NCBI GenBank assembly: GCA_028818695.1
Contig: JAPPNK010000004.1
Coordinates: 1-64,000, forward strand
Reading direction: 5' to 3'
From: Candidatus Poribacteria bacterium
Lineage (GTDB): Bacteria > Poribacteria > WGA-4E > GCA-2687025
DNA length: 64,000 bases
Shown: positions 4,236 to 60,437 of the stretch, piece by piece
Layout of the letters: every line of letters starts with the position of its first letter
Position numbering within the stretch: position 1 is the first letter of the stretch
The notes under the pieces: generated by a model
Told to the model about the DNA's origin: nothing
Databases searched by the model: none
What the model saw: the letters and a program-made list of their open reading frames with translations, nothing else
Position numbers and translations under genes: made by a program

Positions 4236-4264
4236 AATATACGGCGCAGGGGGCGGAATGTCAA
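4236..4264 (-). promoter_or_regulatory. Sigma-70 promoter of the PhyH gene
   Basis: On the minus strand: TTGACA (4264-4259), 17-base spacer, TATATT (4241-4236), ending 29 bases before the PhyH start codon. The -35 box lies 10 bases beyond the end of the repeat at 4275. Confidence 0.75.
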
Positions 4265-4274
4265 GCGTTCCGCC

Positions 4275-4437
4275 TGACCCTAGCGCTTAGTTGGGACATT
4301 CGCCTGGGCGAACGCAGACGGTTTCTGCGGCGCCTCTGGATTCCCGCTTGCGCGGGAATGACGGCCTGGTTGGCGGCGCCTTTTTCCTATAAATAGAGCG
4401 ATCATTCGTTCAAATGTCCCAACTTTACGCATGAGGT
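4275..4437. repeat. Promoter-linked inverted-repeat element, copy A (long)
   Basis: About 163 bases. The left end reads TGACCCTAGCGCTTAGTTGG and runs into GACATT. The right end is the imperfect inverse, AATGTCCCAACTTTACGCAT then GAGG. The centre holds the GGATTCCCGC/GCGGGAATGA palindrome. The left end faces the PhyH promoter; the right end faces the 3' end of the isomerase-like gene. Sister copies are near 29284, 39211, 42701, 43109, 46221, 48521, 53707 and 60234. Confidence 0.8.
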
Positions 4438-4447
4438 TGGTTCCGCT

Positions 4448-5215
4448 TCACGCCGCCATCGCCTTAAACAGCGCGAGATACAGCGCCAAAACCTTCTCAG
4501 GATCGGGACCGCGGTAGGCGCACTCGTTGGAGATGTAGCCGTCAAACCCGGCGCCCTTCAACCATTGAAACATCTGGCGGTACAGGTCAAAGGTCTCCGG
4601 CGCTTCGGCGCGGTGGGTGTGAACCGCCGTGATATGCGGCGCGACGCGCGAGAAAAGCGGCTCAATCTCTCCGTCCCCGCAGCCGACAAACTGACTGTTG
4701 AAGACGAAGCCGACATTCGGCAGATCAACCGCCTCTATGACCTCCATCGCCGCGTCCGGATCGGTGAAGGAGCCGTGCATCTCTATGCTGACGGTCGTGT
4801 TCGACGGCGCGGCGAATTCGCCCAGCTCCCTCAGGGCGTCCGCGACCCAGCCGACAACATCCGCGCGGTTCTCGTCGTTGAACCGGTCGCCGAGAACGCG
4901 CACATGCGCGCATTCCATATAGTTCGCCATTTCGATGACGCGCTTGACCCGTTCGACGCTCTGGGCGCGGTCGGACGCTTCGGCGCTGTGAAAAACCTGG
5001 CAGCTGGTGAGGCTTGAGACGGCGATTCCGCTGCGCCGTATTGTCATGTTCAGCGGCTTCCACTGCTCGCGGGGCGTGTTCCACTCGACGCCGTGGGGCT
5101 GGTTGAAGTCCATGAGCAGCTCCACCGCTTCATAGCCCGTTTTTTGACACATATCAAGCGTTTCGCGCAGCGTCCAGTCCTGCGCGGTCTGATAGGTGTT
5201 CAGCGCAAATTTCAT
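4448..5215 (-). CDS. Sugar phosphate isomerase/epimerase (xylose isomerase-like TIM barrel)
   Basis: 255 residues of the AP_endonuc_2 / xylose-isomerase-like TIM-barrel superfamily. Recognisable strands carry likely metal ligands: E in VSIEMHGSF, H in AVHTHRAE, and E near the C-terminus in ISNECAYRG. The ATG at 5215 is preceded by AAAGGA. Members isomerise or epimerise sugars, inositols or related compounds; the substrate is not deducible. It is divergent from the LamG gene across 183 bases that contain a perfect 12-base palindrome. A second family member lies at 24875. Confidence 0.85.
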   Translation of the reverse strand: MKFALNTYQTAQDWTLRETLDMCQKTGYEAVELLMDFNQPHGVEWNTPREQWKPLNMTIRRSGIAVSSLTSCQVFHSAEASDRAQSVERVKRVIEMANYMECAHVRVLGDRFNDENRADVVGWVADALRELGEFAAPSNTTVSIEMHGSFTDPDAAMEVIEAVDLPNVGFVFNSQFVGCGDGEIEPLFSRVAPHITAVHTHRAEAPETFDLYRQMFQWLKGAGFDGYISNECAYRGPDPEKVLALYLALFKAMAA

Positions 5216-5258
5216 TCGCGTTCCTTTCGTTCTATTCCGCTTCTCAATTCTGGCGTTA

Positions 5259-5270
5259 TGCCAATTGGCA
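5259..5270. promoter_or_regulatory. Perfect 12-bp palindrome TGCCAATTGGCA (possible operator)
   Basis: A perfect palindrome in the divergent region between the isomerase-like gene (minus) and the LamG gene (plus). On the minus strand it directly follows a TATACAAT stretch that could be a -10 box, so a protein bound here would cover the start of the isomerase transcript. A triple GATAT run (5334-5350) lies on the LamG side. The operator role is inference. Confidence 0.4.
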
Positions 5271-5398
5271 TTGTATATGGACGCGCCGTCTGCGGCATGT
5301 GTTTGCGGCGCCGATGTCGGCGGAGGGGCGATCTGATATGATATGATATGATCAGTACAAGACGACGCGCAGCGTCAAATGAACGAAGGGAGAACTTG

Positions 5399-6175: not shown

Positions 6176-6209
6176 CCCGACGGCGCCCTGAAATGGTTTA
6201 GGAGAACGC

Positions 6210-7950
6210 TTGAAAGCGACAACAGTACGAGCATTGAAGTTCATCGAAGAGTCGGCGCAGCTGGAGATGCCGATCTACCAGCGCGCCTACTCGTGGGATA
6301 AGGAACTGTGCGAACGGTTGTTGGAGGACATCGCCGCCGTCGCCGCGAAGCAGACGGGCGCGCTTGAACCGACGCATTTCATCGGCTCGCTCATCTACAT
6401 TCAGAAACCGAACGGGCGCTCGCGGTTCGTTATTGACGGGCAGCAGCGGCTCGCGACGATCGCGCTCATCGTGGAGGCTCTGGCGCGAAGCGCGGAAGAG
6501 AACGCGGAGCAGGCGCCCGTTTCGGCGGAGGAGCTGCGCCGGCGGCATCTTTTCAGCTCAGGCGAGGACGGCGGCGCAGGACGCAAGCTGCTCTTGAGCG
6601 AAACGGACAAGGAAACGCTCATCGCGCTTGCAACGCAAGAGGAACCGCCTGAAAACTACTCGATACGCATCATGGACAACTTCTCCTTTTTTGAGAGGGC
6701 GTTTAAAAAAGCAGGCGCCAAAGAGATGGAGGCGGTCTGGAAAGGGCTGAACAGGCTGACGATGGTCGCCATCGCGCTGGACCCGCTGCAGGACAGACCC
6801 CAGCGCATCTTTGAAAGCATGAACGACCGAGGGATTGAGCTGAGCAATGCGGACCTGATCCGTAACTATGTTCTGATGAACCTCAAGGCGCAGGAGCAGA
6901 CGCAGCTTTACAACGCCAGCTGGCAGCCCATCGAAAACAGGTTCGGGCAGACAGAGGCGGGGTTCGATCAGGAGGCGTACTCAAAGCATTTTGACGAGTT
7001 CATCCGCTACTATCTCGGGATGAAAAACCGCGCGCTTCCGACCAAAGCGAAGATATACGACGAGTTCAAAATATACGCGAACAAACAGGAAGACGTCAAA
7101 AGCTTCGTGGAGAACATCCATGCGTTCGCGGGCTACTACGCCGCAATCAAGCTGGGTCAAGAGCCGGAAATGCCGTTGACGGCTGCGTTCAGCGACCTGC
7201 AGCTGTTGAAAACGAACACGCCGATGCCGTTTTTGCTGGAGCTGTATGAGCGTTATGTCAAACGCGGCATTTTCGCCGGCATGCTGTCGCCCTCAATTTC
7301 AAGCGGCGAACGCCGAGATGGGCTTTCTCACAATGAAGCAATTGGAAGAGGCAGTGCGAGTCATTGAAAGCTATCTTGTCCGCCGCATCGTGTGCGGGTT
7401 GTCCACATCGTTGGGCGCGCATTTTGCTTCCATTTGCCGGTCTATTGACAATGAGCGGTTTGTTGAAAACGTGCGCGGTCTGTTCAGGTCGCTTACAGGA
7501 ACAACCCGCAGATGCCCCGGCGACTCGGAATTTCAACATGAGCTGAAAACGCGCAACCTTTACAGCGCCGCCGTTTGCCCCTACATTCTGCGCCGAATGG
7601 AAAACCATGGGCGAAAAGAGCCGCTGGATCTGGACGAGCATGATGTGGAGCCGATTCTCCCGGCGGAGTCGCCCCTGCCGCCTGAATGGCAGGAGGAGCT
7701 GGGCGTCAACTGGAACCAAACGCATGAGGAGCTGGCAGGGACGCTCGGCAACCTGACGCTGACAAAGGGCGCGCGCCACTTCGCCGACAGCCCCTTCGGG
7801 CATAAGAGAGACCTGGAAACCGGCTACCGGCGCAGCCCCCTATGGCTCAACGACCTGCCGGGCAAAGCGCAGCGGTGGGACGCGCAAGCGATACGAGAAC
7901 GCGCCGAGGCGCTGGCGGAACGGGCGCTCGAAGTCTGGCAGATGCCGTAA
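6210..7950 (+). pseudogene. DUF262/DUF1524 (GmrSD-like) protein, copy 1, frameshifted
   Basis: About 580 codons if one base is removed. The TTG start at 6210 follows AGGAG. The N-terminal DUF262 (GmrS-like, ParB-type NTP-binding fold) has IPIYQRAYSW-like and IDGQQRLAT motifs and the family's ESMNDRGIELSNADLIRNY. The frame breaks near 7293 (one extra T in a CCCTC context): the first frame ends at 7367, and the second continues the homology from MKQLEEAVRVIESYLVRR to 7950. The C-terminal DUF1524 keeps LGNLTLT and the closing W..AIRERA..LAERALEVW but reads VEPILPA where active members have EHIxPQ. The GmrSD family are type IV restriction enzymes against modified phage DNA. A 26-base gap separates it from copy 2. 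Confidence 0.8.
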
Positions 7951-7976
7951 ATAAATGAGATGAGAAGGAGAACCTG

Positions 7977-9680
7977 ATGGACGCAAACGCGATCAATCTG
8001 CTTGACTTCATACAGGGCGGAGAGCCGTTTGAGATACCGATCTATCAGCGCGCCTACTCATGGGAGACGAAGCAATGCCAAAAGCTGTGGGAAGATATAC
8101 TGAGCGTCGGGCGGAGCGCGGACGAGAACCTGTCGCACTTTATTGGAGCTGTCATCTATACTCTGGACGAGGACGCTGAGGGGCGGCCAAAACGGTTTGT
8201 GATCGACGGGCAGCAGCGGTTCGCGACGGTCATGCTGCTCATAGAGGCGCTGGCGCGGTCGCTGAACGCGGGAGAAACGGTCGGCGGGCTGACGGCAACC
8301 GAACTCCGCCGGCAGTACCTCTACAAACCGGATGAAAGCGGCAAGCGCGCATACAAGCTGCTCCTCAACAAACAGGACAGAGAAGCGCTGAAAGCGGTTT
8401 TGGGCGGCGGCGAAAGTCAAGGCGGCGTCTCCCGGCGCATCCAAGAGAACTTTGAATATTACAGGTCCCTCATCGATGGCTTGGCGCCTTTGGACTCGGC
8501 GTTGAAAAGCGCCGTCTTCAACGGGCTGCGCAAGCTGAAGATCGCGGCGGTGGAGCTGAATCTCGAACATGAGAATCCGCAGCAGATCTTTGAAAACATG
8601 AACACCAAAAAGCGGGTTCTGAGCAAGTCAGACCTGATCCGCAACTATGTTCTGTTGGATATGGAGCCGGACGACCAGAACGAGCTGTACAGAGCGCATT
8701 GGCGGCCGATGGAGGAAGAGTTCCATCAAAGGACCTACGCGAAAGATTTTGACGACTTCATCCGTTACTACCTTGCCTTCAAAAACCGCAAAATGCCGGT
8801 CATCAAACGGCTTTACGACGAGTTTCAGGACTTCATGCCGGATCGAATCCGCGAATACAGCCCCAAGAAAAGGGCGGCGGCAATGAAAAAGGTTTTGGCG
8901 GATATTCAGAAATTCGCGGGTTACTACTGCGCCATGAAGCTGGGAAAAGAACGCGACCTGCGCCTCAACGCTGTTTTCAGCGATATTCAGGAACTGAAAG
9001 CGAACACGCTTTTTCCGCTCCTGCTGGGGATGTATGAAGATTACGCCTCAGGCGGAATTCTCACCGCGGCGCAGTTTGAAGAAGCCGCCCGAATCCTTGA
9101 GAGCTATGTCCTGCGGCGCGCCGTTTGCGGCATATCCGGCGGGTTGAACCTTTCGATGCCGCTGCTTCATTCGATGATTGAGCCGGCGCGTTATCTTGAC
9201 AGCGTCCGTCAGATATTTCGAACTCGATCAACATCCCGCAGGTTTCCAAGCGATGTAGAGTTTAAAAGAATGCTCTGGTATGGGGACATGCTCTCGCTGG
9301 CGCCATGTCGGTATCTGCTGCGTAAATTGGAAATCCATGGGGCGGCGGAGCCGCTTGATCTGGACAACTACGGCGTTGAATGCGTCATGCCGCAGAAGCC
9401 CAAAAACGGCGATCTGTCGGACGAATGGAAGCGGGAGATCGGCGCGCAATGGGAAGACGACCACGCAAATTTCGTCCACAACCTTGGGAACCTGACGCTC
9501 ATCAACGAGACGGGACCTTCCCCGCATGACCCGTTCCCCGTCAAGAGAGAGGCGTATCGGGAAAGCCCGCTCTGGCTGAACGCGATCCCCGGCAAGGCGG
9601 AGCGGTGGGGCGCAAAGGCGATTCGGGAACGCGCCCGCGTCTTGGCGGAACGGGCTATGGAAGTTTGGCCGATGGCGTGA
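7977..9680 (+). CDS. DUF262/DUF1524 (GmrSD-like) protein, copy 2, intact
   Basis: 567 residues, ATG preceded by AAGGAG. It is the only unbroken member of the tandem trio. DUF262 covers about residues 1-250 (PFEIPIYQRAYSW; FVIDGQQRFAT; IFENMNTKKRVLSKSDLIRN). A helical linker follows to about 440, then DUF1524 to the end (LGNLTL; F.VKRE; W..KAIRERAR.LAERAMEVWP). The DUF1524 His-Me nuclease motif normally reads EHIxPQ; here it is VECVMPQ, with Cys in place of the catalytic His. In the known GmrSD system the S part binds and hydrolyses nucleotide and the D part cuts glucosylated hydroxymethylcytosine DNA. Without the His this protein may bind or signal rather than cut. That is inference. Confidence 0.85.
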   Translation: MDANAINLLDFIQGGEPFEIPIYQRAYSWETKQCQKLWEDILSVGRSADENLSHFIGAVIYTLDEDAEGRPKRFVIDGQQRFATVMLLIEALARSLNAGETVGGLTATELRRQYLYKPDESGKRAYKLLLNKQDREALKAVLGGGESQGGVSRRIQENFEYYRSLIDGLAPLDSALKSAVFNGLRKLKIAAVELNLEHENPQQIFENMNTKKRVLSKSDLIRNYVLLDMEPDDQNELYRAHWRPMEEEFHQRTYAKDFDDFIRYYLAFKNRKMPVIKRLYDEFQDFMPDRIREYSPKKRAAAMKKVLADIQKFAGYYCAMKLGKERDLRLNAVFSDIQELKANTLFPLLLGMYEDYASGGILTAAQFEEAARILESYVLRRAVCGISGGLNLSMPLLHSMIEPARYLDSVRQIFRTRSTSRRFPSDVEFKRMLWYGDMLSLAPCRYLLRKLEIHGAAEPLDLDNYGVECVMPQKPKNGDLSDEWKREIGAQWEDDHANFVHNLGNLTLINETGPSPHDPFPVKREAYRESPLWLNAIPGKAERWGAKAIRERARVLAERAMEVWPMA

Positions 9681-9687
9681 CACAAAT

Positions 9688-9717
9688 TTGACAGCGCCAA
9701 AGCGTTTCGCATACAAT
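9688..9717 (+). promoter_or_regulatory. Sigma-70 promoter of DUF262 copy 3
   Basis: TTGACA (9688-9693), 18-base spacer, TACAAT (9712-9717), about 60 bases before the TTG start at 9777. The third copy can therefore be expressed separately from copies 1 and 2. Confidence 0.7.
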
Positions 9718-9776
9718 ATACCCAAGGTGGCATGAACGCGCGCCGCCAGAGATTGCATACGAGATTGGAGACGCAT

Positions 9777-11560
9777 TTGAGAGCAGAAGCTGAAAGACTT
9801 CTCCGTTTCATTCGTGCGACGCCGCAGTTTGAAATACCGACTTATCAACGGGGGTATTCATGGAACGAAAAGCAATGCGAGCAGCTATGGAAGGACATCG
9901 TGCGAGCTGGGGACGATTCTAACCCGGACCGCAATCATTTTTTTGGAAGCATCATCTATATCGAAAAGGGAAACAGCGGCTCGCATTATGTTATTGACGG
10001 GCAGCAGCGTCTGGCAACCATCGCTCTCATCATTGAAGCGATCGCCCGCGCCGTTGGACAAAGCGAACCTGAGGAAGGTTTCTCGGCAACCAAGCTTCGC
10101 AGCCGGTACCTGATAGACCCTGCCGGAATCGGCGAAGCGGCGCACAAGTTGCTCCTCAGCCAGACCGATAGAAAACGCTGATAGCTCTCATCGAAAATAA
10201 AGACACCCCCGACGACTTTTCTCTCCGCATCCGTGAGAATTTCAAATTTTTTCAGCAAAAAGTAAAGGGTGTACAAGCAAGAGGCCAGCATCGCATGGCT
10301 TCGCTTTGCAAGGGGCTGAACAAATTGGCGGTTGTTCAAATCTCCCTTGATCAAAAACATGACCGTCCGCAGCTCATCTACGAAAGCATGAACGACACAG
10401 GGCTTGATATGAGTACTGCAGATAAGATTCGCAATTTCGTTCTCTTAGACATGACCCCTGAGGATCAAGAGAAATTTTACAGAGATCATTGGCGGGCGAT
10501 GGAAGACGACTTCGGGCAAGCGGATAGCCTCGAATTTGTCAAATACTTTGGCGAATTTACTCGTTATTACCTTGCCCATAAAAATCGCCAATTGCCAGAT
10601 AAAGACAAGGTGTACGCCGAATTCAAAACGTATGCGCACGCGCAACAAAGCGAGGCGGGAACAACAGACGTTCTGCCCATTGTTGAGGACATCAAAAAAT
10701 TTGCGCGATACTACTGCGCAATGAAATTCGGTCTATCGTCATGGCCCGATCGTCCCTTTCAGGAGAAAAACCCTCTTCTCAAAATGGCGTTTGACGACCT
10801 GCAAGAGATCAACGCGAACACGCCATTTCCTCTTCTGCTGGAACTGTACGACGACTACATCACTTTTAGCAATATACTCAGTCGCGCTTCTAGCGCACAG
10901 CTTGACGATGTTCGACGCCACTTTCTTGACTACCTTCATTCTGCCGAGCAGTTTGAAGAGATCATCCGAATGATTGAGAGTTACATCGTCCGGCGATCTG
11001 TGTGTCGCTTGCCCCCGCCTCAATTGGCCGATGTCTTTGCATTGTTTGGTAAATATCTTGAAAAAGAACGATGCGTGGAGAGCATTCGCGACCACTTCCT
11101 TTCGCTAACGGGAATTCGCGCATTTCCCAGAGACTCAGAATTTCAAACGGAATTCATTGAGGGCGATCCGGCTGGTCGTCCTATCTGCAAATATATTTTT
11201 CGCCGTATGGAAAACCATGGGCGCAGAAGTCGCTTTCCGCTGGACGATTACAATGTTGAATACATCATGCCTCAAAAGCGACCGCTGTCAGACGATTGGA
11301 AGAGAGAGCTCGGCGAAGATTGGAGCAACATCCAAGAGCGCTGGGCCAAAACCCCCGGGAATCTGACGCTCATGGAAGACTTCAGAGACTCCGCCCCCCT
11401 TCCCTTCAGCCGTAAGAGAGACGTCAATAACGGCTATCGAAACAGTCCGCTCTTGCTCACTAAAGAGCTAGGCTCCGTCCAGCGGTGGGATGCTAATGCA
11501 ATCCGCAAACGCGCAGAGCGCCTAGCGCAGCGGGCGTTGGAAGTATGGCCGATGCCCTAA
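9777..11560 (+). pseudogene. DUF262/DUF1524 (GmrSD-like) protein, copy 3, frameshifted
   Basis: About 594 residues if one base is restored. I chose a TTG start at 9777, behind GGAG, because it aligns residue for residue with the start of copy 2 (12 residues to LLxFI). An ATG at 9732 would add 15 residues. The first frame ends at 10181. The homology (TLIALIENKD, then the R.NFKFF segment) continues in another frame from 10175, so one base is missing in the GAAAAC tract at 10171-10176. DUF262 motifs: IPTYQRGYSW, VIDGQQRLAT, ESMNDTGLDMSTADKIRN. In DUF1524 the EHIxPQ motif is VEYIMPQ (Tyr for His) and LGNLTL is PGNLTL. It is the most diverged of the three. Confidence 0.8.
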
Positions 11561-11563
11561 TCC

Positions 11564-23020: not shown

Positions 23021-24563
23021 TCAATCTGCAAGCAGTTTGGCTTTCCGCCTATCGTTCGTGACCGTTCTGCTCTTTGCCGGAGGCAAACCGGTTTCCGCGC
23101 CTCGATATCTAGTATCCGAGAACGAATTGACCTCTGCCTCTTCTCGAAACAAATCGTCCATGTTTCCGAATCGCGTGAACGCATGCCCGCCGTGGTACTT
23201 ATCCCAAGACATTTGACGCTTGTTTGTCAGGGACGCGCTGAAAGTTGCGGAATACGCAAGCTCCAGGCTGATCAGATCCTCGATGCGGTGTCCCCTGGCC
23301 AACAGCATATTGGCTGCTCCCGGTTCATTCCCTACCCACCAGCCAGATTGTCTGAGGAAATCGACCTGAGGAAGGTCCGCGTCGTCATTGTAGTAAACAA
23401 CAGAGTGCGAGGTGGTCAGTATGTGATCGTGTTGCGTGTCGGTGACGTGTGTGACGCTGTCAACGGATGCTTTGATCGACTTCCAGATGAAGTCGTTGTT
23501 ATTATACACGGTCGCCTCCACGATGAAAGGATCGCTTTTGACCTCTTCGCCGTTGATCGTGGCGTATGCTGTCACAACGATGTCGCGCTCATGAGCTTCT
23601 ATAAATGTAGGGTCATCGTCGTCGTGTCTGAGGTTGTTGAAGGTGTGAGAGAATTGACTTTCCGTGTCGTTCGCTCCATCGCTGGGGTCTGGATATGTGT
23701 CCCCATGCTCGACGCTGTATTCGACGCGGCTGAAGGGAATGTTGGTGTAGGCATACACGAAAAGCTCTTCGCCCTCCACGACCTTAGCCGAAAACGGAGA
23801 CGGCGAACAATAATCGATCGAGATCATCTTCCAGGCGACGATCTCAATCGACGCGGCTTCGCCGTCTGCGTTGACGCCGTATGGAGTCGCCGTGAACGTG
23901 ACGGTATTGCCGTGCGGGACGGTTGAAAAGTCGTATGCGATCTGACTTGTCAGCCCAGGTCCGCTGGTCGTGATCGCAGTCGCGCTGCCGCCAGACCCGT
24001 CATCGACAGACCAATCGACGCGGTGGAAGCCCACATCCGTTTGGACAGAGACATCGTCCGTTGTGACTCCAACGTAGGTATTGTCGCTGGTTTTTGAAAC
24101 GATATTGACCGTTTCTGATTTCGTCCAGATGTTGATGGTTGTCTCGGCGGCGTCGGAGTCGCCTAAGGCGTCAAAGGCAACGGCTTTCACAACAACTGCG
24201 GAGCCGGTCGTTGAGCCTAGGCCGTCATATGTGAAAGTGAAATCGCTTGAAGCGCCTGGATTATTGTTTGTCCATTCATGTTCTGGGTCATCGTCGCCGT
24301 CAGCCTCAACAGTCCAATCAACCCTGACAGGTCTGTTGTCCAGGTTGTCCAAGATTCGCCCAGGTTTAACGACCAAGGACGCCGTTGCGGTGTGCGACTC
24401 GCCTTCAAATATGTCGGTTGCCGAGACCGTCATCTGAGTGATCTCAATCGTTTTGATTTCGACAACCGCGTTGCCGGGCGCGCAGACGAAGACAGCGGCC
24501 GTTGCCGCAGCAAGCAAGGTCAGCGCCGCTTTACGCAGCCGACTCTCGCGGGGGGGGGGTCAT
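23021..24563 (-). CDS. Secreted Ig-like repeat protein with C10 tract at its 5' end (possible phase variation)
   Basis: The main open frame runs from 24517 to 23021 (498 codons). It holds several Ig/PKD-like beta-sandwich segments (VRVDWTVEADGD, HRVDWSVDDGSG, SRVEYSVEHGD) followed by a unique C-terminal region of about 170 residues. That frame has only a TTG start and half a signal peptide. An ATG at 24563 followed by A and ten C would complete a proper signal peptide (TPPRESRLRKAALTLLAAAT, ending PGNA) if the tract held nine or twelve C. With ten C it ends early. A slipping tract could switch the protein on and off; the alternative is a base-count error in assembly. The function of the C-terminal part is unknown. 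Confidence 0.7.
24550..24559 (-). repeat. Homopolymer C10 (G10 on the plus strand) at the start of a secreted protein gene
   Basis: Ten identical bases four bases after the ATG at 24563. Nine or twelve would place the ATG in frame with the signal peptide and the 498-codon frame; ten puts it out of frame. Such tracts are classic slipped-strand switches. Confidence 0.7.
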
Positions 24564-24660
24564 GAGAGTTCGCACGATTTCATTCAAATGACGCACGTTT
24601 GCGTTTTCCTTTCTGGCGGTTTCCCGCCGTGTAACTGAACGATTCTTGACAACATTCGGA

Positions 24661-24689
24661 ACTATAGCATAGGCTTTGCCGCGCAGCAA
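24661..24689 (-). promoter_or_regulatory. Sigma-70 promoter of the Ig-like gene
   Basis: Minus strand: TTGCTG (24689-24684), 17-base spacer, TATAGT (24666-24661), giving a leader of about 90 bases to the ATG at 24563. No gene is seen in 24564-24874, which is the divergent promoter region. Confidence 0.6.
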
Positions 24690-24820
24690 CTTTTTTTGCG
24701 CAAACAAACCTCCACCGCATCATGACGATAACCTATGCAGGCTTTTGAAACAAGATCTTTTTCTAAACGCGATTCTTGGGTTGACGCATGCCCCGCAGCG
24801 CGGCAAAGGATGCGCTGCGC

Positions 24821-29275: not shown

Positions 29276-29283
29276 CCGCTTTC

Positions 29284-29505
29284 TGACCTTAAGGCTTTAG
29301 TTGGGACACGTCGACATGCGAATGCGGACGTCGTCTGTTGGATTCTGGATTCCCGCTTTCGCGAGAATGACGCTCCGGTTGGCGAAGCCTTTTCCCGTAA
29401 ATAGAACGATAATTCGTTATGCGAATGCGGAGGACGTCTGTTGGACTCTGGATTCCCGCGCGTTTTACCGCAAGGGCGGGAATGAAGGCCGGCGGCGCGG
29501 ACGCT
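29284..29505. repeat. Promoter-linked inverted-repeat element, copy B (partial, rearranged)
   Basis: Starts with the intact end TGACCTTAAGGCTTTAGTTG followed by GGACAC. A central palindrome follows at about 29347. Then ATGCGAATGCGGA plus the GTCTGTTGGA.TCTGGATTCC segment (from 29318) is repeated about 100 bases later (from 29419) with a second palindrome, and no matching right end is found. The region up to the CotH gene at 29639 holds nothing else, apart from a possible TTGACA at 29558. Confidence 0.65.
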
Positions 29506-29638
29506 TTAGGGTTAAAATGAGAACCTCCATATAAGCGTACTACCCCGCTTGCGCCGGTTGACAAATCGAAAGAGAATCGGCAAACTGCGCATAGCGGCAT
29601 GGCAATCGTTTGAAGCGCGGAACCAGAAGGAGAGTCGT

Positions 29639-31384
29639 ATGAAGCAATGGGCTTTGCCCCTCGCTCTGTTGGTCTTTGGAATTTCGCTCAGCGGCGTCGC
29701 AAAGGAGATGACCTTGGACGATCTTTTTCCGACCGACCGCGTTCTGGACATACAGATATTCGTTGAACAGAGAGACTGGGACCTAATTCGACATCAGTCA
29801 AGGGATTTCAGGTCGGCGCTGGACGAATCGCGCAAATACGGACACATCAAAGGACCCTACACCTATGTCCCGGCGCGCGTCGTCATTGACGACGTTCTTT
29901 TCTCGGCGGTCGGCTTGCGCAAAAAAGGCTTCATCGGCTCGCAAAGCCATACGCGCCCGTCGCTCAAAATCAAGCTGGACTATATCGACAAGGAGGCGTC
30001 CGTCGAGGGGCTGAATCTCCTGACGCTCAACAACAACAAGCAGGACCTAAGCCAGATGGATCAGTATCTCGGCTATGCGCTCTTCAACAAGGCGGGCGCC
30101 CCCGCCCCAAGATGCGCCTTTGCGAGGGTGAGCGTCAACGGGGAGCAGCTCGGCGTCTATTCGCATGTGGAAAGCATACGCGCGCCGTTTCTAGCGCGCC
30201 AGTTCGGCGACGACAGCGGCGTCCTGTATGAAGGAACCGTCGTCGACTTTTTTGAAGGCTGGGAAAACGCTTTTGAGTATAAACGCGGCGACGACGAGCT
30301 CGGCAGGGAGCGCATCAAGCAGTTGATAGCCGCTCTGAGCGATCCCGGCACGACGGCGGAATCGATTGGCGAACTCGTGGATCTGGACTCCTTTTATCGA
30401 TTCTGGGCTTTGGAAGGTTTGGTCGGCTTCGGCGACGGATACACTGGAAACATCAACAATTTTTATGTGTATCTGAATCCAAAGACGGATAAATTCCACT
30501 TCATCATATGGGGCGCCGACGCGCTGTTCCGCAAGTATAGCCATGTGGAGCGCGGAAGAGACCGGCGCGCGCCCATCTCGGTGAAGATGAAGGGGCGGAC
30601 GGCGCTCTCGCTTTACCGGCTGGAAGAGGGGCGCGGGGGGTTCCGCCGCGCGATGATGGAGCTGCTGGAAAACCACTGGGACGAAGAAAAGCTGCTGGCG
30701 GAGATCGACCGCGTCGCGGAGATGATTGAGCCGCATCTAGCGCGCGAGCAGCGCCAATCAAGAAACGAAATCGGACGGCAAGCCTCGTTTGAGCGCGAAG
30801 TGGAGGATGTGCGGCGGTTTATCCGTTTGCGGCGAGACGACATCATGGAGGAGATACGCGACGGCATGCCGATTTGGAACGCAAGGCTGGAAGAGCCGTT
30901 TGTGATGCGGTCCGATGAACGGCGCTTTCCAGAGCTGCCCAAAGAGGGGGTGTGGCATGAGGCGCGCATGGGCAAGCTGGCGGCGGTTGAGAAGCGTCTA
31001 GCGGACGGCGCGGATGTGAACGAGCGGGACAAGATGTTCTATCTGGCGCCGTTGGGATGGGCGGCTCTCTACGGGCAGACCGAAGTCGCCCGCGCCCTGC
31101 TTGACAACGGAGCCGACGTAAATATCCTTGACAGGTCGGGAAATACGCCGCTCCACACCGCCGCGTTTCTAGGCGATGTGGAAACGGCGAAGCTGCTGAT
31201 CGAGAACGGGGCGAATATCCGCGCGAAGAATCATGAAGGCGGCATGCCGATAGAATCGACCAAAGCGCCGTTTGAGGTCACCTCCTTTATCGGCTCCATC
31301 TTTCAGATCAAGATCGACCATAGACGGTTTGCCGCCATCGAAAAAGGCAGGGCGGAAATTGTAAAGCTGCTGAATAGCCCCTAG
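29639..31384 (+). CDS. Secreted CotH-kinase-family protein with C-terminal ankyrin repeats, copy 1
   Basis: 581 residues. ATG at 29639 follows AAGGAG; signal peptide about residues 1-20. CotH-like domain at about 25-430: MTLDDLFPTDRVLDIQI opening, FTYVPARVVIDD-like strand, KKGFIGS, LNLLTLNNNKQD, YSHVESI, GDGYTGNINNFYVYLN and FHFIIWGADALF. CotH kinases of spore coats phosphorylate proteins; the Poribacteria-like secreted versions are untested. At about 435-580 there are ankyrin repeats (LGWAALYGQTEVARALLDNG, GNTPLHTAAFLGDVETAKLL). A CotH-ankyrin fusion is unusual. Copy 2 begins 115 bases downstream, and the ankyrin DNA is almost identical in both. Confidence 0.85.
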   Translation: MKQWALPLALLVFGISLSGVAKEMTLDDLFPTDRVLDIQIFVEQRDWDLIRHQSRDFRSALDESRKYGHIKGPYTYVPARVVIDDVLFSAVGLRKKGFIGSQSHTRPSLKIKLDYIDKEASVEGLNLLTLNNNKQDLSQMDQYLGYALFNKAGAPAPRCAFARVSVNGEQLGVYSHVESIRAPFLARQFGDDSGVLYEGTVVDFFEGWENAFEYKRGDDELGRERIKQLIAALSDPGTTAESIGELVDLDSFYRFWALEGLVGFGDGYTGNINNFYVYLNPKTDKFHFIIWGADALFRKYSHVERGRDRRAPISVKMKGRTALSLYRLEEGRGGFRRAMMELLENHWDEEKLLAEIDRVAEMIEPHLAREQRQSRNEIGRQASFEREVEDVRRFIRLRRDDIMEEIRDGMPIWNARLEEPFVMRSDERRFPELPKEGVWHEARMGKLAAVEKRLADGADVNERDKMFYLAPLGWAALYGQTEVARALLDNGADVNILDRSGNTPLHTAAFLGDVETAKLLIENGANIRAKNHEGGMPIESTKAPFEVTSFIGSIFQIKIDHRRFAAIEKGRAEIVKLLNSP

Positions 31385-31498
31385 CGGCGTCCGGGATTTG
31401 GCGTCCATAAAACGCTCATGAGATTCCCGTTTGCGCAGGCTGCGTTGTATGATGACGTTAGGCGGCGCGGCGCGTTCATCAGAAGAAAGGAGAGTCTC

Positions 31499-33352
31499 AT
31501 GAAGTTTGACCGCAGGGCGTTCAACCGAGGCGGCGCATGGGGCGCATGCATACTGCTATGCTTGGCGGCGCTCGCCTGCGGGACGGCCGACGGGAAAGAC
31601 GACGGGGCGGCCGACGGGAAAGACGACGGGGCGGTTGACGGGAAGGACGGCGGGGCAAAGAAACTGACGCTGGACGATCTCTTCCCGACCGACCGCGTCA
31701 TGGACATACAGATTGAGGTCTCGCCGCAGGACTGGAACACGCTGCGGCATCAGACGCGCCATGGACACAGGGGGCAGCGCGGCTCCAGCAAGCCGTTCAC
31801 CTATGTGCCGGCGCGCGTGACGATAGACGGCGTCCAGTTTCCCAATGTCGCCATCCGTAAAAAAGGCTTCATCGGCTCCATCAGCAGCTCCCGCCCGTCG
31901 CTCAAGGTCAAGTTGAACTACACGGACAAAGAGGCGAACATCGGGGGGCTGAATCTGCTGACGCTCAACAACAACAAGCAGGACCCAAGCCAGATTGACC
32001 AGTATCTAGGGTATCGGCTGTTCAACGAGGCAGGCTCTCCCGCGCCGCGGTGCGCCTTTGCGGAGGTGAGCGTCAACGGACGCTCTCTCGGCGTCTATTC
32101 GCATGTGGAAGGCGTGCGCTCCCATTTTCTGAAGCAACATTTCGGCGACAACGGCGGCGTCCTGTATGAAGGCACAACCATCGATTTTCATCCCGGAAGC
32201 GAACACGGGTTTGAGCATGAGCGCGGCGACGACGCCCTCGGCAAGGACCGCATCCGGCAGCTGTCAGCCGTTCTCACCGGTTCAAATCCGTCCGCAATCG
32301 AAATCGGCAATCATATCGACCTGGACTCGTTTTACAAGTTCTGGGCGTTGGAGGGGCTGATTGGTTTCGGCGACGGGTATACTGGAAACATGAACAACTA
32401 CTTTTTCTATCTGAATCCTGCAACGGACAAGTTTCACTTCATACCATGGGGCGCGGACGCCTCGTTTCGCAAGTATAGCCATGTGGAAAGAAGAGACCCT
32501 TCGGCGCCCATTTCGGTGAAGATGCGGGGCGCCATCGCGAGCGCGCTCTATCAAACGCAGGAGGGGCGCGAGGGGTACCGCAAAGCGATGCTGGAGCTGC
32601 TTAACAAGCGGTGGAATGAAGAGGCGATGGCGGCGGAGATCGATCGGGTGGGGAAGATGATTGAGCCGTATCTAACTCGTGAGCAGCGCAACGCGCACAA
32701 CGAGGTCGGGGGGCGAAGAGGGTTTAGAGGGGAACTGGAGGATGTGCGCAGCTTTATTCTCACGCGCCGAGGCGACATCATGGGGGAGATTGCCGGCGGA
32801 ATGCCGATCTGGTCGCACAGGTCTTCTAGGGGGTTCCACGCGCATGCCGCCCATCGGGCGGTCCAAATACAAGTACAGCCGCAGCCGCCGCAACCGCCGC
32901 AGCTGCCTGACACAGGCATCTGGCGCGACGCGCGCATGGGAGACGTCAAGGCGGCGGAACGGCGCATTGCGCATGGGGCGGATGTGAACGAGCGGGACAG
33001 GATGTACCATCTGGCGCCGTTGGGATGGGCGGCTCTCTACGGGCAGACCGAAGTCGCCCGCGCCCTGCTTGACAACGGAGCCGACGTAAATATCCTTGAC
33101 AGGTCGGGAAATACGCCGCTCCACACCGCCGCGTTTCTAGGCGATGTGGAAACGGCGAAGCTGCTGATCGAGAACGGGGCGAATATCCGCGCGAGGAATC
33201 ATGAAGGCAACATGCCGGCAGCCTCGACCAATGCGCCGTTTGAAATCACCTCCTTTATCGGCGCCGTCTTTCAGATCAAGATCGACCGCAGAAGGTTTGC
33301 CGCCATCGAAAAGGGCAGAAAGGAGATTGTCCAGCTGCTGAATAGCCAGTAA
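31499..33352 (+). CDS. CotH-kinase-family protein with ankyrin repeats, copy 2 (putative lipoprotein)
   Basis: 617 residues, ATG at 31499 after AAAGGAG. The N-terminus has a signal sequence ending in LAALACGT, a likely lipobox with Cys near residue 25, so it is probably lipidated, unlike copy 1. Next comes a linker of three near-identical 8-residue units (ADGKDDGA), encoded by a 24-base tandem repeat at about 31584-31653. The CotH-like domain (LTLDDLFPTDRVMDIQ to GGMPIWSHR) follows, then a Gln/Pro-rich linker (QVQPQPPQPPQLPDTG) and the same ankyrin module as copy 1. Copies 1 and 2 are clearly paralogous through the CotH part but diverged there, while the ankyrin DNA is nearly identical. Confidence 0.85.
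   Translation: MKFDRRAFNRGGAWGACILLCLAALACGTADGKDDGAADGKDDGAVDGKDGGAKKLTLDDLFPTDRVMDIQIEVSPQDWNTLRHQTRHGHRGQRGSSKPFTYVPARVTIDGVQFPNVAIRKKGFIGSISSSRPSLKVKLNYTDKEANIGGLNLLTLNNNKQDPSQIDQYLGYRLFNEAGSPAPRCAFAEVSVNGRSLGVYSHVEGVRSHFLKQHFGDNGGVLYEGTTIDFHPGSEHGFEHERGDDALGKDRIRQLSAVLTGSNPSAIEIGNHIDLDSFYKFWALEGLIGFGDGYTGNMNNYFFYLNPATDKFHFIPWGADASFRKYSHVERRDPSAPISVKMRGAIASALYQTQEGREGYRKAMLELLNKRWNEEAMAAEIDRVGKMIEPYLTREQRNAHNEVGGRRGFRGELEDVRSFILTRRGDIMGEIAGGMPIWSHRSSRGFHAHAAHRAVQIQVQPQPPQPPQLPDTGIWRDARMGDVKAAERRIAHGADVNERDRMYHLAPLGWAALYGQTEVARALLDNGADVNILDRSGNTPLHTAAFLGDVETAKLLIENGANIRARNHEGNMPAASTNAPFEITSFIGAVFQIKIDRRRFAAIEKGRKEIVQLLNSQ
33011..33208 (+). repeat. 198-bp near-identical ankyrin-coding tract shared with 31043-31240
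   Basis: The DNA from CTGGCGCCGTTGGGATGGG to the GAATCATGAAGGC segment matches the same part of copy 1 with about one mismatch, while flanking CotH coding DNA differs at many positions. Confidence 0.8.
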
Positions 33353-39199: not shown

Positions 39200-39210
39200 G
39201 CTTTTTTTCT

Positions 39211-39403
39211 AGCCTCATGCGTAAAGTTGGGACATTTGAACGATTGATCGCTCTATTTATGGGGAAAGGCTCCGCCCGCGAAAGCGTCATTCCCGCGAAG
39301 CATGTCCTCGTGAAAACGGGGAACGGGGAGCGGGAATCTAGAGGCGCCGCAGACGCCATCTGCGTTCGCATGTCGACATGTCCCAACTAAAGACACAAGG
39401 TCA
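39211..39403. repeat. Promoter-linked inverted-repeat element, copy C (long)
   Basis: About 193 bases. Left end AGCCTCATGCGTAAAGTTGG then GACATTTG; right end CGACATGTCCCAACTAAAG then ACACAAGGTCA. The central palindrome is expanded by a nested GAAGCATGTCCTCGTGAAA segment followed by ACGGGGAACGGGGA. The left end faces the receptor promoter, the right end the 3' end of the next minus-strand gene. Confidence 0.8.
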
Positions 39404-39414
39404 GTTTTTCAGCG

Positions 39415-42700: not shown

Positions 42701-42730
42701 GTCATGATGTCCAACTTTAGGCATGAGATC
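42701..42730. repeat. Promoter-linked element, copy D1 (single end)
   Basis: GTCATGATGTCCAACTTTAG then GCATGAGATC. Only one terminal motif is present, preceded by CGTCATG as in copy E. It ends 12 bases before a -35 box. Confidence 0.7.
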
Positions 42731-42742
42731 CTACTAGAAAAG

Positions 42743-42770
42743 TTGACGCATCCCTGGCGTTTGGTATACA
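42743..42770 (+). promoter_or_regulatory. Sigma-70 promoter of the 96-residue coiled-coil gene
   Basis: TTGACG (42743-42748), 16-base spacer, TATACA (42765-42770), about 48 bases before the ATG at 42818. Confidence 0.65.
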
Positions 42771-42817
42771 CTATACGGACAAAGTAAAAACGGATTCATG
42801 GATGCGGAGAGAAGGAC

Positions 42818-43108: not shown

Positions 43109-43162
43109 CCGCGCAGAAACCGTCTCGCCGCCCGGCATGTCCCAACTCAAGCGTCAAGATCA
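43109..43162. repeat. Promoter-linked element, copy D2 (single end)
   Basis: CGCAGAAACCGTCTCGCCG then CCCGGCATGTCCCAACTC and AAGCGTCAAGATCA, matching the right third of copy G. It lies between convergent genes, with no promoter found beside it, so it is the exception in the family. Confidence 0.65.
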
Positions 43163-43183
43163 GGAGAAAACCGCTGCTTCCCT

Positions 43184-46190: not shown

Positions 46191-46219
46191 AGAATAACGC
46201 ATGCCCGCCATGATGTCAA
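46191..46219 (-). promoter_or_regulatory. Sigma-70 promoter of the coiled-coil membrane gene pair
   Basis: Minus strand: TTGACA (46219-46214), 17-base spacer, TATTCT (46196-46191), 43 bases before the ATG at 46148. The end of repeat copy F lies about 6 bases beyond the -35 box. Confidence 0.75.
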
Positions 46220-46220
46220 T

Positions 46221-46307
46221 CATACAGGCTCTGTAGTTGGACATGTCGACATGCGAACGCGGACAGCGTCTACGGCGGTTCTGGATTCCCGCTTGCGCGG
46301 GAATGAC
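46221..46307. repeat. Promoter-linked element, copy F (left half)
   Basis: AGGCTCTGTAGTTGGACATG then TCGACATGCGAACGCGGA, followed by the central palindrome GGATTCCCGCTTGCGCGGGA. The terminal motif is shortened and no right end is found before the glycosyltransferase gene. Confidence 0.7.
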
Positions 46308-46394
46308 AACATGGGAGGCGGACAGCGTATGCGCGCGGGAAGGACCGACTCGCCCCCCGTTAAGCGCTACTATAGAAAGCGGGAGGGTTTGTCC

Positions 46395-48181: not shown

Positions 48182-48250
48182 TCATTCCTGTGAAGCATGT
48201 CCCCGTGAAGCATGTCCTCGTGAAAACGGGGAACGGGGAGCGGGAATCTT
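48182..48250. repeat. Expanded CATTCC...GGGAATC palindrome
   Basis: CATTCCTGTGAAGCATGTCC, a second GAAGCATGTCC unit, GTGAAAACGGGGAACGGGGA, then GCGGGAATCTTAG. It is the same nested expansion as inside copies C and G, without the terminal motifs. A further fragment (GATTCCCGCTCCCCGTTTTC then GCGGGGACATAC) lies at about 48430-48462. Confidence 0.7.
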
Positions 48251-48520: not shown

Positions 48521-48551
48521 GTCATGATGTCCCAACTTTATGCATGAAATC
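48521..48551. repeat. Promoter-linked element, copy E (single end)
   Basis: GTCATGATGTCCCAACTTTA then TGCATGAAATC. A single terminal motif 10 bases before a -35 box, with the same CGTCATG prefix as copy D1. Confidence 0.75.
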
Positions 48552-48561
48552 GATTCCGCGC

Positions 48562-48590
48562 TTGACAAGCCGGCATTTTTCTGCCATCAT
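48562..48590 (+). promoter_or_regulatory. Sigma-70 promoter of the Fe-S carrier operon
   Basis: TTGACA (48562-48567), 17-base spacer, CATCAT (48585-48590), 34 bases before the ATG at 48625, with AAGGAAGG between. Confidence 0.65.
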
Positions 48591-53633: not shown

Positions 53634-53666
53634 CGAATTCTCCCTGCTTTGTTAAAATCCGCCCAT

Positions 53667-53695
53667 AGAGTAGCGCCTTTCTCAATCGAAGGCAA
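53667..53695 (-). promoter_or_regulatory. Probable promoter of the lipoprotein gene
   Basis: Minus strand: TTGCCT (53695-53690), 17-base spacer, TACTCT (53672-53667). Weaker -10 match. The -35 box lies 11 bases from the repeat end at 53707. Confidence 0.45.
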
Positions 53696-53706
53696 GTATG
53701 GGGTAC

Positions 53707-53920
53707 TGACCTCATGCGTAAGGTTGGGGCATTTGAACGGATGATCGCTCTATTTATGGGGAAAAGGCGCCGCCAACCGGGCCGTCGCCCGCGAAGCATG
53801 TCCCTGTGAAGCATGTCCCCGTGAAAACGGGGAACGGGGAGCGGGAGCGGGAATCCAGAGGCGCCGCAGAAACCGTCCGCGTTCGCCCAGGCGAATGTCC
53901 CAACTAAAGCGCTAAGATCA
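53707..53920. repeat. Promoter-linked inverted-repeat element, copy G (long, between divergent promoters)
   Basis: About 214 bases. Left end TGACCTCATGCGTAAGGTTG then GGGCATT; right end CGAATGTCCCAACTAAAGCG then CTAAGATCA. The centre is the expanded nested palindrome (GAAGCATGTCCCTGTGAAG units and an ACGGGGAACGGGGAGCGGGA tract). Each end faces a promoter: the lipoprotein on the left, argF on the right. Confidence 0.82.
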
Positions 53921-53924
53921 GCGT

Positions 53925-53953
53925 TTGACTCTTCCCAACTCCCCTGCTAGAAT
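53925..53953 (+). promoter_or_regulatory. Sigma-70 promoter of argF and the ABC exporter
   Basis: TTGACT (53925-53930), 17-base spacer, TAGAAT (53948-53953), 24 bases before the argF start. The repeat's right end stops 4 bases before the -35 box. Confidence 0.75.
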
Positions 53954-53977
53954 GTATCTTTTCTAAGGGAAGAGAAA

Positions 53978-56065: not shown

Positions 56066-56095
56066 CGAGGAAAAGGCGCGTGAAAGGAGCATGAG

Positions 56096-56770: not shown

Positions 56771-56857
56771 GAGCGCGCTTGTAGAGCCAAAAGAAGCGTA
56801 ACGCCGCGCCGCGCGCCTGCGTATGTTAAGCGCATGCATGTCATCAAAGGGAGATGT

Positions 56858-57790: not shown

Positions 57791-57793
57791 CCC

Positions 57794-59446
57794 ATGAAAA
57801 ACAGGCTCATGGGATGGTTTCGGCAGCCTGAAAATGCGCTCTTTGCGGCGTTGATCCTGCTGCATCTCATACCGATTTGGGCGTTCCCGTATTTTCCGTC
57901 CCAGGACGGTCCTGCCCATCTCAACAACGCAAATGTTCTGCGCGAATACAATCACCCCGACCGCTCCGTCTTCCGCGAGTATTATGTTCTCAACTCGAAC
58001 CCGGAGCCGAACTGGACGGGGCATCTGGCGCTGGCGGGGCTGATGTTCCTTGTTCCGCTGTTGACGGCGGAGAAGCTGCTGTTGAGCGGCTATGTCGTTC
58101 TGCTGCCGTTGTCGGCGCGGTATGCCGTCCGCGCGGTGAACCCTCAAAACGCGGGGCTGGCGTTTCTCTCCTTCCCGTTCATCTTCAACTACCTGCTCCA
58201 TATGGGCTTTTACAATTTCTCGTACAGCCTGCCGTTCTTCTTTTTTGTTGTGGGTTACTGGGCGAAGAAGCAGGAACGGTTCGGATGGCGCGAGGCGTTG
58301 ATCATGGCGCTGTTGTGGCTCGCGCTCTACTTTACGCATATCTTTTCGGTCGTTACAGCTTGCGCCGCAATCGGTCTGGCGGCGCTCATGTTCACGGCGT
58401 TTGATCTTGTGAATCGGCTGCGCGGCGTTCCGCCGGACGGGGAGACTCCAAAAACGTCGTTTTGGAGGTTGTTCGCCTCGCGCGCGCTCGTTCCGTTCAT
58501 AGCGCTCCTTCCGACGGCTCTTCTTGTGTTGAATTTTCTCAACCAAAAAGGCGTTAGGCGCGGGGAGCCGCTCCCCGTTGGGTTTCAGTGGCGCCGCCTG
58601 CGCACTTTAGAGTCGCTCGTTTCGTTCCATGATTACGAGGTATGGCTTGCGATTTCGGTCGCCGCGTTGTTTGCGGCGTTGACCGCCTTTTTGCTTTTGG
58701 TTAAAGTTCTCCGTTGGGAGTGGAACCGCTGGGACGCGCTGCTGATCGTTTCGGCGGCGTATGTGTACATCTATTTCATCGCGCCGGACTGGATGTCGGG
58801 CGGCGGATTCATCAGCCACCGCATGATTCTATTCCCTTACATCGCTCTGCTGCTGTGGGCGGCGGGGCAGCGCTGGCCGGTATGGTCAAAGCGGACTGCG
58901 CAGGCGGCGGCTGCGGCGCTCGCCGTCGCTTTTCTTGCATTGAATATGCGCAGCTACGCGCAGCTGAACGAGTATCTGGAGGAGTACATTTCGGCGGGCG
59001 ACCATGTGGAGCCGAACACAACGCTGCTGCCGCTCTGCTTTAGCCATCAAGGGCGCGACGAGAACGATCGGATCATGGCGCGGCGCATCGGGCCGTTTCT
59101 GCATGCGTCCGGCATCATCGCGGCAAAAAAGCGCATCGTCGAGATGGACAACTACGAAGGAAACACAACCTATTTTCCCGTTCTTTTTAGACCCGAAAAA
59201 AATCCGTTCACTCATATCGGCGCCATTGAAGCGCAGCCGCCGCAGGTCGACTTTCTCTCCTTCAATGAAAAAACGGGCGGAACGGTCGACTATGTCCTGC
59301 TGTGGCAGCTTCGAGACCTCTATCATGAGAACGCGCAGAAAATCTTGGAGCAGCTGGACAAGGGCGGGTACGAGCGCATCTTCGTCTCTGAGCCGAGAGG
59401 CGCCGCGCAGCTGTACCGCCGACCCGGCTTGAAAACAGGCGAATGA
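57794..59446 (+). CDS. Polytopic membrane protein, possibly a glycosyltransferase-like C superfamily member
   Basis: 550 residues with about ten membrane helices (for example 15-35, 65-90, 110-135, 150-165, 180-205, 225-250, 275-300, 310-330). A short SQDGPAHLNNANV loop with an Asp lies between the first helices. The form, with an early D in a periplasmic loop and many helices, resembles PMT/ArnT-type GT-C glycosyltransferases, but a typical catalytic motif is not complete. The C-terminal 120 residues are soluble. Start ATG, 4 bases after the xer stop. The SUMF1 gene overlaps its end by four bases. Confidence 0.7.
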   Translation: MKNRLMGWFRQPENALFAALILLHLIPIWAFPYFPSQDGPAHLNNANVLREYNHPDRSVFREYYVLNSNPEPNWTGHLALAGLMFLVPLLTAEKLLLSGYVVLLPLSARYAVRAVNPQNAGLAFLSFPFIFNYLLHMGFYNFSYSLPFFFFVVGYWAKKQERFGWREALIMALLWLALYFTHIFSVVTACAAIGLAALMFTAFDLVNRLRGVPPDGETPKTSFWRLFASRALVPFIALLPTALLVLNFLNQKGVRRGEPLPVGFQWRRLRTLESLVSFHDYEVWLAISVAALFAALTAFLLLVKVLRWEWNRWDALLIVSAAYVYIYFIAPDWMSGGGFISHRMILFPYIALLLWAAGQRWPVWSKRTAQAAAAALAVAFLALNMRSYAQLNEYLEEYISAGDHVEPNTTLLPLCFSHQGRDENDRIMARRIGPFLHASGIIAAKKRIVEMDNYEGNTTYFPVLFRPEKNPFTHIGAIEAQPPQVDFLSFNEKTGGTVDYVLLWQLRDLYHENAQKILEQLDKGGYERIFVSEPRGAAQLYRRPGLKTGE

Positions 59447-60120
59447 ACAAGCCGGCGACCGTTCCCATACCTGCCGGCTGGTTCTGGATGGGTTCCAACG
59501 ACGGACCAGAGAACGAACGCCTGATGCGCCGCGTGTGGGTGGATGCGTTTGAGATGGGCGTCTTCGCCGTCTCGAACCGAGAATACGCGGTCTTCTTGGA
59601 GGCGTCGGGGCATGAACCTCCCCCTTTTTACGATGATCCGAAGTTGAACGCGCCGAATCAGCCTGTCGTCGGACCGAGCTGGCATGACGCAAACGCCTAT
59701 ATCGAATGGCTGTCCGAGGCGGTCGGGACAGCGTACCGCCTGCCGACCGAGGCGGAGCGGGAGAAAGCGGCGCGCGGCGGCTTGGATCGGCGCGCGTATC
59801 CATGGGGGGACGCGCTGCCGGCGAACGCTGAAGGCGGGCGCCATACGCCGCTCGAACCGGTGGACGCCTATGCGCCGAACGGGTACGGTCTCTACGGCAT
59901 GGCGAGCGGCGTTCATGAATGGTGCAGCGACTGGTTCGATCCGAACAGCTACGCCTCAGCGCCGGAGCGCAACCCGCGCGGTCCGTCGGCGGGGGAACGG
60001 AAAGCGGCGCGCGGCGGATCATGGCGGCACAGCGTCCGTTTCACGCGCTGCGCGGCGAGAAGCGCCCTCGCGCCGGATAAACAGTTCAGCGACTTCGGGT
60101 TTCGGCTCGCGCTCGATTAG
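59443..60120 (+). CDS. Formylglycine-generating enzyme-like (SUMF1) domain protein
   Basis: 225 residues, ATG overlapping the previous stop (ATGA). SUMF1/FGE fold: PAGWFWMGSNDGPENERLM opening, VWVDAFEMGVFAVSNREYAV, TAYRLPTEAEREKAARGG with the PTEAEWE-like motif, YPWGDALP, ASGVHEWCSDWF and the final FSDFGFRLAL. The two copper-binding active-site Cys of true FGE (in a C..G.SWH context) are not both recognised, so it may be a non-catalytic or otherwise specialised SUMF1 protein. Coupled to the membrane protein gene. Confidence 0.85.
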   Translation: MNKPATVPIPAGWFWMGSNDGPENERLMRRVWVDAFEMGVFAVSNREYAVFLEASGHEPPPFYDDPKLNAPNQPVVGPSWHDANAYIEWLSEAVGTAYRLPTEAEREKAARGGLDRRAYPWGDALPANAEGGRHTPLEPVDAYAPNGYGLYGMASGVHEWCSDWFDPNSYASAPERNPRGPSAGERKAARGGSWRHSVRFTRCAARSALAPDKQFSDFGFRLALD

Positions 60121-60233
60121 AGCTGGCGAGAGAACCCGACACGGGAGAACCCTAACCCCTCGATAAAGAGAAATTAAGGACGCTTAACGGCGCTTCTGGA
60201 TTCCTGCTTGCGCGGTCGGCGGGTTGTTGCTCC

Positions 60234-60398
60234 TGACCTTACGTCTTTAGTTGGGACATGTCGGCATGCGAACGCGGACGTCTTCTGCGGCGCCTCTAGA
60301 TTCCCGCTTGCGCGGGAATGACGGCCTGGTTGGCGACGCCTTTTTCCCATCAATAGAGAGATCATTCGTTCAGCTGTCTCAACTTTATGCATGAGGTC
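60234..60398. repeat. Promoter-linked inverted-repeat element, copy H (long)
   Basis: About 165 bases. Left end TGACCTTACGTCTTTAGTTG then GGACATG; right end CTGTCTCAACTTTATGCATG then AGGTC; central palindrome GATTCCCGCTTGCGCGGGAA. The right end faces the lpxL promoter. A degenerate second palindrome lies at about 60198. Nothing else is seen in 60121-60455. Confidence 0.82.
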
Positions 60399-60409
60399 GG
60401 CTGCTTGCG

Positions 60410-60437
60410 TTGCTGGATGCGGCGGGCATGGTATAAT
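60410..60437 (+). promoter_or_regulatory. Sigma-70 promoter of the lpxL-lpt operon
   Basis: TTGCTG (60410-60415), 16-base spacer, TATAAT (60432-60437), 18 bases before the ATG at 60456. The repeat's end lies 11 bases upstream of the -35 box. Confidence 0.75.

Follow-up and report, generated by a model that had tools for sequence, protein, structure and literature searches.

Copies of the repeat in the 64-kb window

The window analyzed here is a 64-kb stretch of the genome of a Candidatus Poribacteria bacterium (3.57 Mb, 35 contigs, 91% complete). The M42 peptidase encoded in it shares 69-72% identity with Candidatus Poribacteria assemblies, which places the organism among relatives of the Poribacteria. 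The window carries nine copies of a short repeat with two types of end, R and L, and all nine were found at the positions given in an earlier note on this DNA. For each end we measured the offset, defined as the distance from the A of its ATGTCC motif to the first base of the -35 box. Throughout this work, promoters and their transcription starts are predictions made with the E. coli sigma70 matrix, which comes from another organism than the host.

The first full-length element occupies 4274-4439/4440 on the minus strand and is bounded by a 7-bp target duplication, GTTCCGC, at 4267-4273 and 4440-4446 (4267-4446 in all). Its R-type end (offset 35 from 4299) faces a minus-strand sigma70-like promoter predicted at 4236-4264 (score 14.6; -35 TTGACA at 4264-4259, -10 TATATT at 4241-4236). 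The copy itself begins at 4274; position 4236, with which the range in the earlier note opens, marks the outer limit of its promoter. The next copy (29283-29418, minus strand) has lost its distal end and retains a promoter-near R end at 29283-29309 (promoter score 8.1, offset 34 from 29309). A full-length 196-bp element at 39209-39404 (minus strand; flanks TTTTTC) has a second palindrome nested in its hairpin, and its L end (offset 36 from 39235) points toward the predicted promoter of a TonB-dependent receptor gene.

Several copies are reduced to a lone end or are degenerate. A lone L-type end with one base deleted (42707-42772 with its promoter, plus strand) has an offset of 36 to a predicted -35 box at 42743 (spacer 18). 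The lone R-type end at 43137-43163 (plus strand) is the single copy without a promoter (best score 2.1), as had been noted before. In the degenerate copy at 46218-46332 (46191-46332 with its promoter, minus strand), the predicted promoter lies 25 bp from the ATGTCC motif at 46244. Another lone L-type end, which belongs to a second subfamily (48527-48590 with its promoter, plus strand; offset 35), is followed by TTGACA at 48562, with a spacer of 17 and an Fe-S carrier gene downstream.

The two remaining copies are full-length. The 216-bp element at 53706-53921, also with a nested palindrome, has predicted promoters on both sides (53667-53953 in all; offset 37 from 53732 on the minus strand and 30 from 53895 on the plus strand), and the plus-side promoter serves an argF-like ornithine carbamoyltransferase (OTCase) gene. 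The element at 60233-60400 (60233-60437 with its promoter, plus strand) directs its L end, at an offset of 36 from 60374, toward the predicted promoter of an lpxL-type gene (-35 at 60410-60415, -10 TATAAT at 60432-60437, spacer 16). Thus, the list of promoter distances in the earlier note was essentially reproduced with the sigma70 matrix, with offsets of 25-37 bp.

Structure and copy number of the element

The repeat has a consensus of ~167-168 bp, contains no genes and carries imperfect 27-bp inverted repeats at both ends. These ends have the form CTGACC...AGTTGGGACAT; read outward, the R end is ATGTCCCAACTAAAGCGCTAAGGTCAG and the L end is ATGTCCCAACTTTACGCATGAGGTCGG, the two being alike in the core and unlike outside it. 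The middle of the element is a REP-like hairpin with the central palindrome ATTCCCGCnnnnGCGGGAAT.

Using a 27-bp matrix, we identified 217 ends in the window and 119 further genome stretches, which resolve into 67 elements with paired ends and a further 83 solo ends, or at least about 150 copies in the 3.57-Mb genome; the same threshold gave no matches in reversed sequence. These end and copy numbers are lower bounds, since the stretches were chosen by a near-exact end motif and several contigs end inside copies. Many contigs start or stop within an element (e.g., C2, C3, C4, C13, C18, C20, C29, C31, C33 and C35), so the copy number is underestimated. A pattern scan of the contigs for paired ends gave no match. 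This genome contains 110 exact occurrences of the motif ATGTCCCAACTWWA, compared with 0-2 in any one of 57 relatives, where the end motif gave single background matches only.

Association with predicted promoters

Among near-exact ends (n=190, at most one mismatch), a predicted promoter is found at offset 36 in 31 cases and at offset 37 in 42, against a chance expectation of ~0.44 promoters per offset. The association holds across the genome. With the 27-bp matrix, an outward promoter is predicted in the 9-bp window of offsets 33-41 at 110 of 216 scorable ends, compared with ~3% in control windows further out (binomial p ~1e-98 against 3.5%). R ends have such a promoter more often (70/110) than L ends (40/106). 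Among paired elements, 56 of 67 (84%) possess a promoter at one or both ends, versus 6% for control windows; no promoter is recognizable at the other 11 paired elements or, counting every end singly, at about half of the ends. Stand-alone hairpins, with 4/26 matches at offset 21, numbered only 13 and were too few to serve as a control.

The spacing is narrow. For 85 of 102 promoter-proximal ends, 9-11 bp separate the outer end of the repeat from the -35 box. An open reading frame starts within 400 bp beyond 92 of the 110 promoter-near ends. Genes behind these predicted promoters encode or include a TonB receptor, an Fe-S carrier, argF, lpxL, recA, murD, homoserine dehydrogenase, a radical SAM protein, a DNA methylase, TPR proteins and others, and they form no evident regulon.

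This last observation bears on one of the two readings put forward in the earlier note, in which the end motif is a transcription-factor binding site (about -71 to -45) that was spread by a mobile element and kept as a regulon. The fixed phase to the promoter and a position fitting for an activator or UP-like element speak for such a site, as do the lone end motifs adjoining promoters (44 of 83 solo ends). However, solo ends are promoter-near about as often as paired ends and show no overall enrichment, and two differing ends, R and L, take the same position. Moreover, in the 45 elements that have a promoter at one end only, the promoter-near and the promoter-far end are equally conserved (p=0.46). 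Neither a selected promoter-proximal site nor a coherent gene set, as expected of a transcription-factor regulon, was found. The equal conservation of near and far ends and the unrelated functions of the served genes, recA and murD included, favor directed insertion over a retained regulatory site, which we regard as unlikely; a small effect of the element on expression is possible.

A transposase might also recognize a -35-like sequence (TTGAC) rather than promoters as such. TTG is indeed the strongest conserved feature of the target, and TTG[AC] is present in the offset window at 109 of 217 ends (~15 expected). However, 62% of these TTG[AC] sites have a good -10 box 16-18 bp further on, compared with 2% of the remaining TTG[AC] sites in that DNA, and the spacer equals 17 in 78 of 102 promoter-proximal ends, which is not expected of a target defined by the -35 box alone. 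The signal includes the -10 box, and we consider recognition of TTGAC by itself very unlikely.

Evidence for insertion at promoters

Exact target duplications of at least 6 bp flank 41 of 63 elements, versus ~5.5% of permuted flank pairs; they are mostly 6-9 bp long, with a mode of 7. Together with its short length, lack of coding capacity, terminal inverted repeats (67 copies with both ends recognizable) and the empty-site paralog described below, these duplications identify the repeat, on sequence grounds, as a non-autonomous transposon (MITE).

Paralogous loci make it possible to compare occupied and empty sites. At locus L119, the sequence around the inserted copy is AAACCCGTC-[element]-CCCGTCCGCTTGATT...TTATCT. 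A paralog within the same locus, 96% identical, reads AAACCCGTCCGTTTGACT...TTATCT, with an intact promoter and a single copy of the target. The presence of the promoter in the paralog that lacks the element suggests, most simply, that the promoter predates the insertion. In a second pair, the region downstream of the element end at L105 has a ~90% identical paralog in the window (24464-24759, minus strand) with no element at the matching place. At L112, two paralogous promoters each have their own element end at the same distance, in different orientations.

Some copies are stacked. At seven junctions the facing ends of neighboring copies are 5-8 bp apart, i.e. one duplication length, and at five or more of the seven, the later copy has a promoter on its far side. 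This arrangement is as predicted by repeated insertion at one position relative to one promoter, judging from the junction sequences. At the stacked locus L108, the 7-bp duplication expected is imperfect, with agreement of the flanks at only 5 bases.

Copies that spare the promoter and lie close to open reading frame starts could also be left by random intergenic insertion followed by purifying selection. This scenario predicts a broad upstream spread, whereas the promoter matches in the first five 10-bp gap bins number 63, 85, 6, 6 and 9, and such a single narrow peak argues for targeting rather than selection. In addition, repeated insertion at one promoter position and independent insertions at paralogous promoters would both need targeting. 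We therefore view random insertion with selection as highly improbable. That the repeat itself supplies the promoter, like Correia elements or MITEAba12, is hardly conceivable: promoters do abut the repeat, yet they lie outside it, as the earlier note had remarked, their sequence differs from copy to copy apart from the boxes, judging from column frequencies, and at the paralogous empty sites the promoter is present although the element is not.

Directed insertion of the element at promoters is thus well supported by the sequence comparisons. Of the two readings in the earlier note, an element that targets promoter-upstream DNA agrees with the target duplications, the empty-site paralog, the stacking and the 9-11 bp spacing, and the regulatory site spread by a mobile element does not agree with the conservation of ends, the distribution of solo ends or the gene content.

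Comparison with known elements and search for a transposase

Promoter-directed transposition in bacteria is known from a few Mutator-type families. Two groups of Mutator-type (p-MULT) elements insert upstream of sigmaA promoters: TnGBS/ISLre2 (p-MULT 3) inserts 15-17 bp upstream of the -35 box, and ISKra4 (p-MULT 4) has promoters on either side; the inverted repeats of such elements measure 18-39 bp and their duplications 8-9 bp (PMC3942029). The MITE shares with p-MULT elements, the closest known to it in behavior, the fixed insertion upstream of sigma70/sigmaA promoters. In p-MULT elements, however, the -35 box lies 13-17 bp from the end of the inverted repeat, whereas the MITE mostly keeps 9-11 bp. 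The duplications of the MITE are variable, mostly 6-9 bp with a mode of 7, beside the 8-9 bp of p-MULT elements. The p-MULT elements also have their own or an in-genome p-MULT transposase, and none was found in the genome of the MITE. With TnGBS/ISLre2 the MITE has in common the fixed promoter distance, the inverted repeats, the target duplication and an orientation set by unequal inverted repeats; unlike the MITE, TnGBS/ISLre2 are autonomous ICE or IS elements that encode a transposase.

ISKra4 resembles the MITE in promoter targeting and in having promoters on either side, and it is present in the same class, its transposases being found in 25 of 82 genomes, including one of the same family. 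The Poribacterial ISKra4 copies (L178-L197) lie mostly 15-16 bp upstream of a predicted -35 box, with exact 9-bp duplications in at least 5 of 13 copies checked, which shows at the level of predicted promoters that the published specificity of ISKra4 holds in the Poribacteria lineage too. The spacing differs from that of the MITE (9-11 bp) and so, less clearly, does the duplication length (mostly 6-9 bp). In a comparison of inverted repeats, the ISKra4 ends of relatives also differ from those of the element (GGGTGTGTAAAGTTTTTGGCA versus CTGACCTCATGCGTAAAGTTGGGACAT). The sequence AACTTTAC is common to the L end of the MITE and the Poribacterial ISKra4 ends, and the -35 box lies ~21-22 bp beyond it in both. 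It may be a sign of kinship, a weak hint since the R end lacks AACTTTAC.

The element's own genome (91% complete) gave no match to PF00872, NF033572, NF033529, PF01609 or PF10551, the models for Transposase_mut, ISKra4, ISLre2, DDE_Tnp_1 and MULE transposases. Since no transposase match was obtained there, the nature of the mobilizing enzyme is deduced indirectly; its gene may have been lost or may be missing from the assembly. An autonomous partner with the element's ends was found neither in this assembly nor in the relatives searched. MITE ends are often, though not always, shared with an autonomous element. In a class-wide BLAST search with the 168-bp element, the central palindrome alone matched, in one genome of the same family and without the inverted ends. 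Viral contigs gave no match to the element, and plasmids matched the central palindrome only. A sub-threshold match of the element to the Rfam family SNORA48 was taken as chance.

Like Correia elements and MITEAba12, the repeat is short, gene-less and multicopy, with inverted ends and target duplications. In the accessible portions of the papers on these two elements, promoters are carried inside the element, and promoter-directed MITE insertion is not described (PMC10969869, PMC6382973).

Proposed mechanism and its implications

Taken together, the repeat is very probably a MITE of ~167 bp that was joined to DNA at a set distance ahead of sigma70 promoters. The transposase, supplied from elsewhere, would move the MITE so that its outer end comes to lie 9-10 bp before the -35 box, at about position -45, with duplication of 6-9 bp of target. 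We infer, by analogy with what has been proposed for TnGBS, ISLre2 and ISKra4, that recognition is linked to RNA polymerase, i.e. that the transposase or the target complex would recognize promoter DNA together with the polymerase. Among elements with a single promoter-near end, this is the R end in 35 and the L end in 10 (p=0.0002), a preference that may stem from unequal recognition of the two ends. As the promoter stays intact, insertion would be tolerated and copies would accumulate.

The mobilizing enzyme may well be a Mutator-type (p-MULT) transposase. A more doubtful option is a transposase family, so far undescribed, that would locate promoters without the known p-MULT signature and insert ~6 bp closer to the -35 box. 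Such insertions would fall within the usual docking region of the C-terminal domain of the RNA polymerase alpha subunit. If real, such a family would give bacterial transposons a second route to polymerase-bound promoters, independent of the first.

Neither promoter targeting by a MITE nor targeting at a 9-11 bp spacing is described in the available parts of the literature examined. The at least 150 copies tag ~110 predicted promoters of an uncultivated bacterium, providing a ready promoter set (TTGAC-N17-TATAAT-like) and a basis for studying statistically how RNA polymerase is located by a transposase. They also indicate that the genome absorbs many insertions beside housekeeping genes such as recA and murD, with the promoters kept.

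Palindromes, subfamilies and other repeats

REP/dRS3-like palindromes (ATTCCCGCnnnnGCGGGAAT) match the central hairpin of the element. They stand alone in a related genome, whereas here the palindrome is only the central part of an element that is longer and has inverted ends of its own; in the plasmid search it was also found in Azospirillum, Neisseria and other records. Longer copies contain, inside their central hairpin, a second palindromic repeat of the CATGTCCCCGTGAAAACGGGGA type (39277-39335, 48187-48245 and 53788-53846 in the window), and 12 of its 13 strict matches in the stretches examined are no more than 160 bp away from an element end.

The second subfamily of L ends has an inner sequence like CCGCTGATCATCGCGGTTCTTTCGTCATG and is represented at L041, L051, L054, L117, L122, L137 and position 48527 of the window. 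Its members are mostly solo, several of them at predicted promoters, and they were perhaps left by an earlier round of spread of this kind of element.

The window contains other duplicated genes as well. Three tandem, mutually paralogous GmrSD-like genes (GmrSD_N / GmrSD_C, of the type IV restriction type) lie at 6210-11560, and duplicate genes in tandem encoding a CotH kinase with ankyrin repeats occupy 29549-33352.
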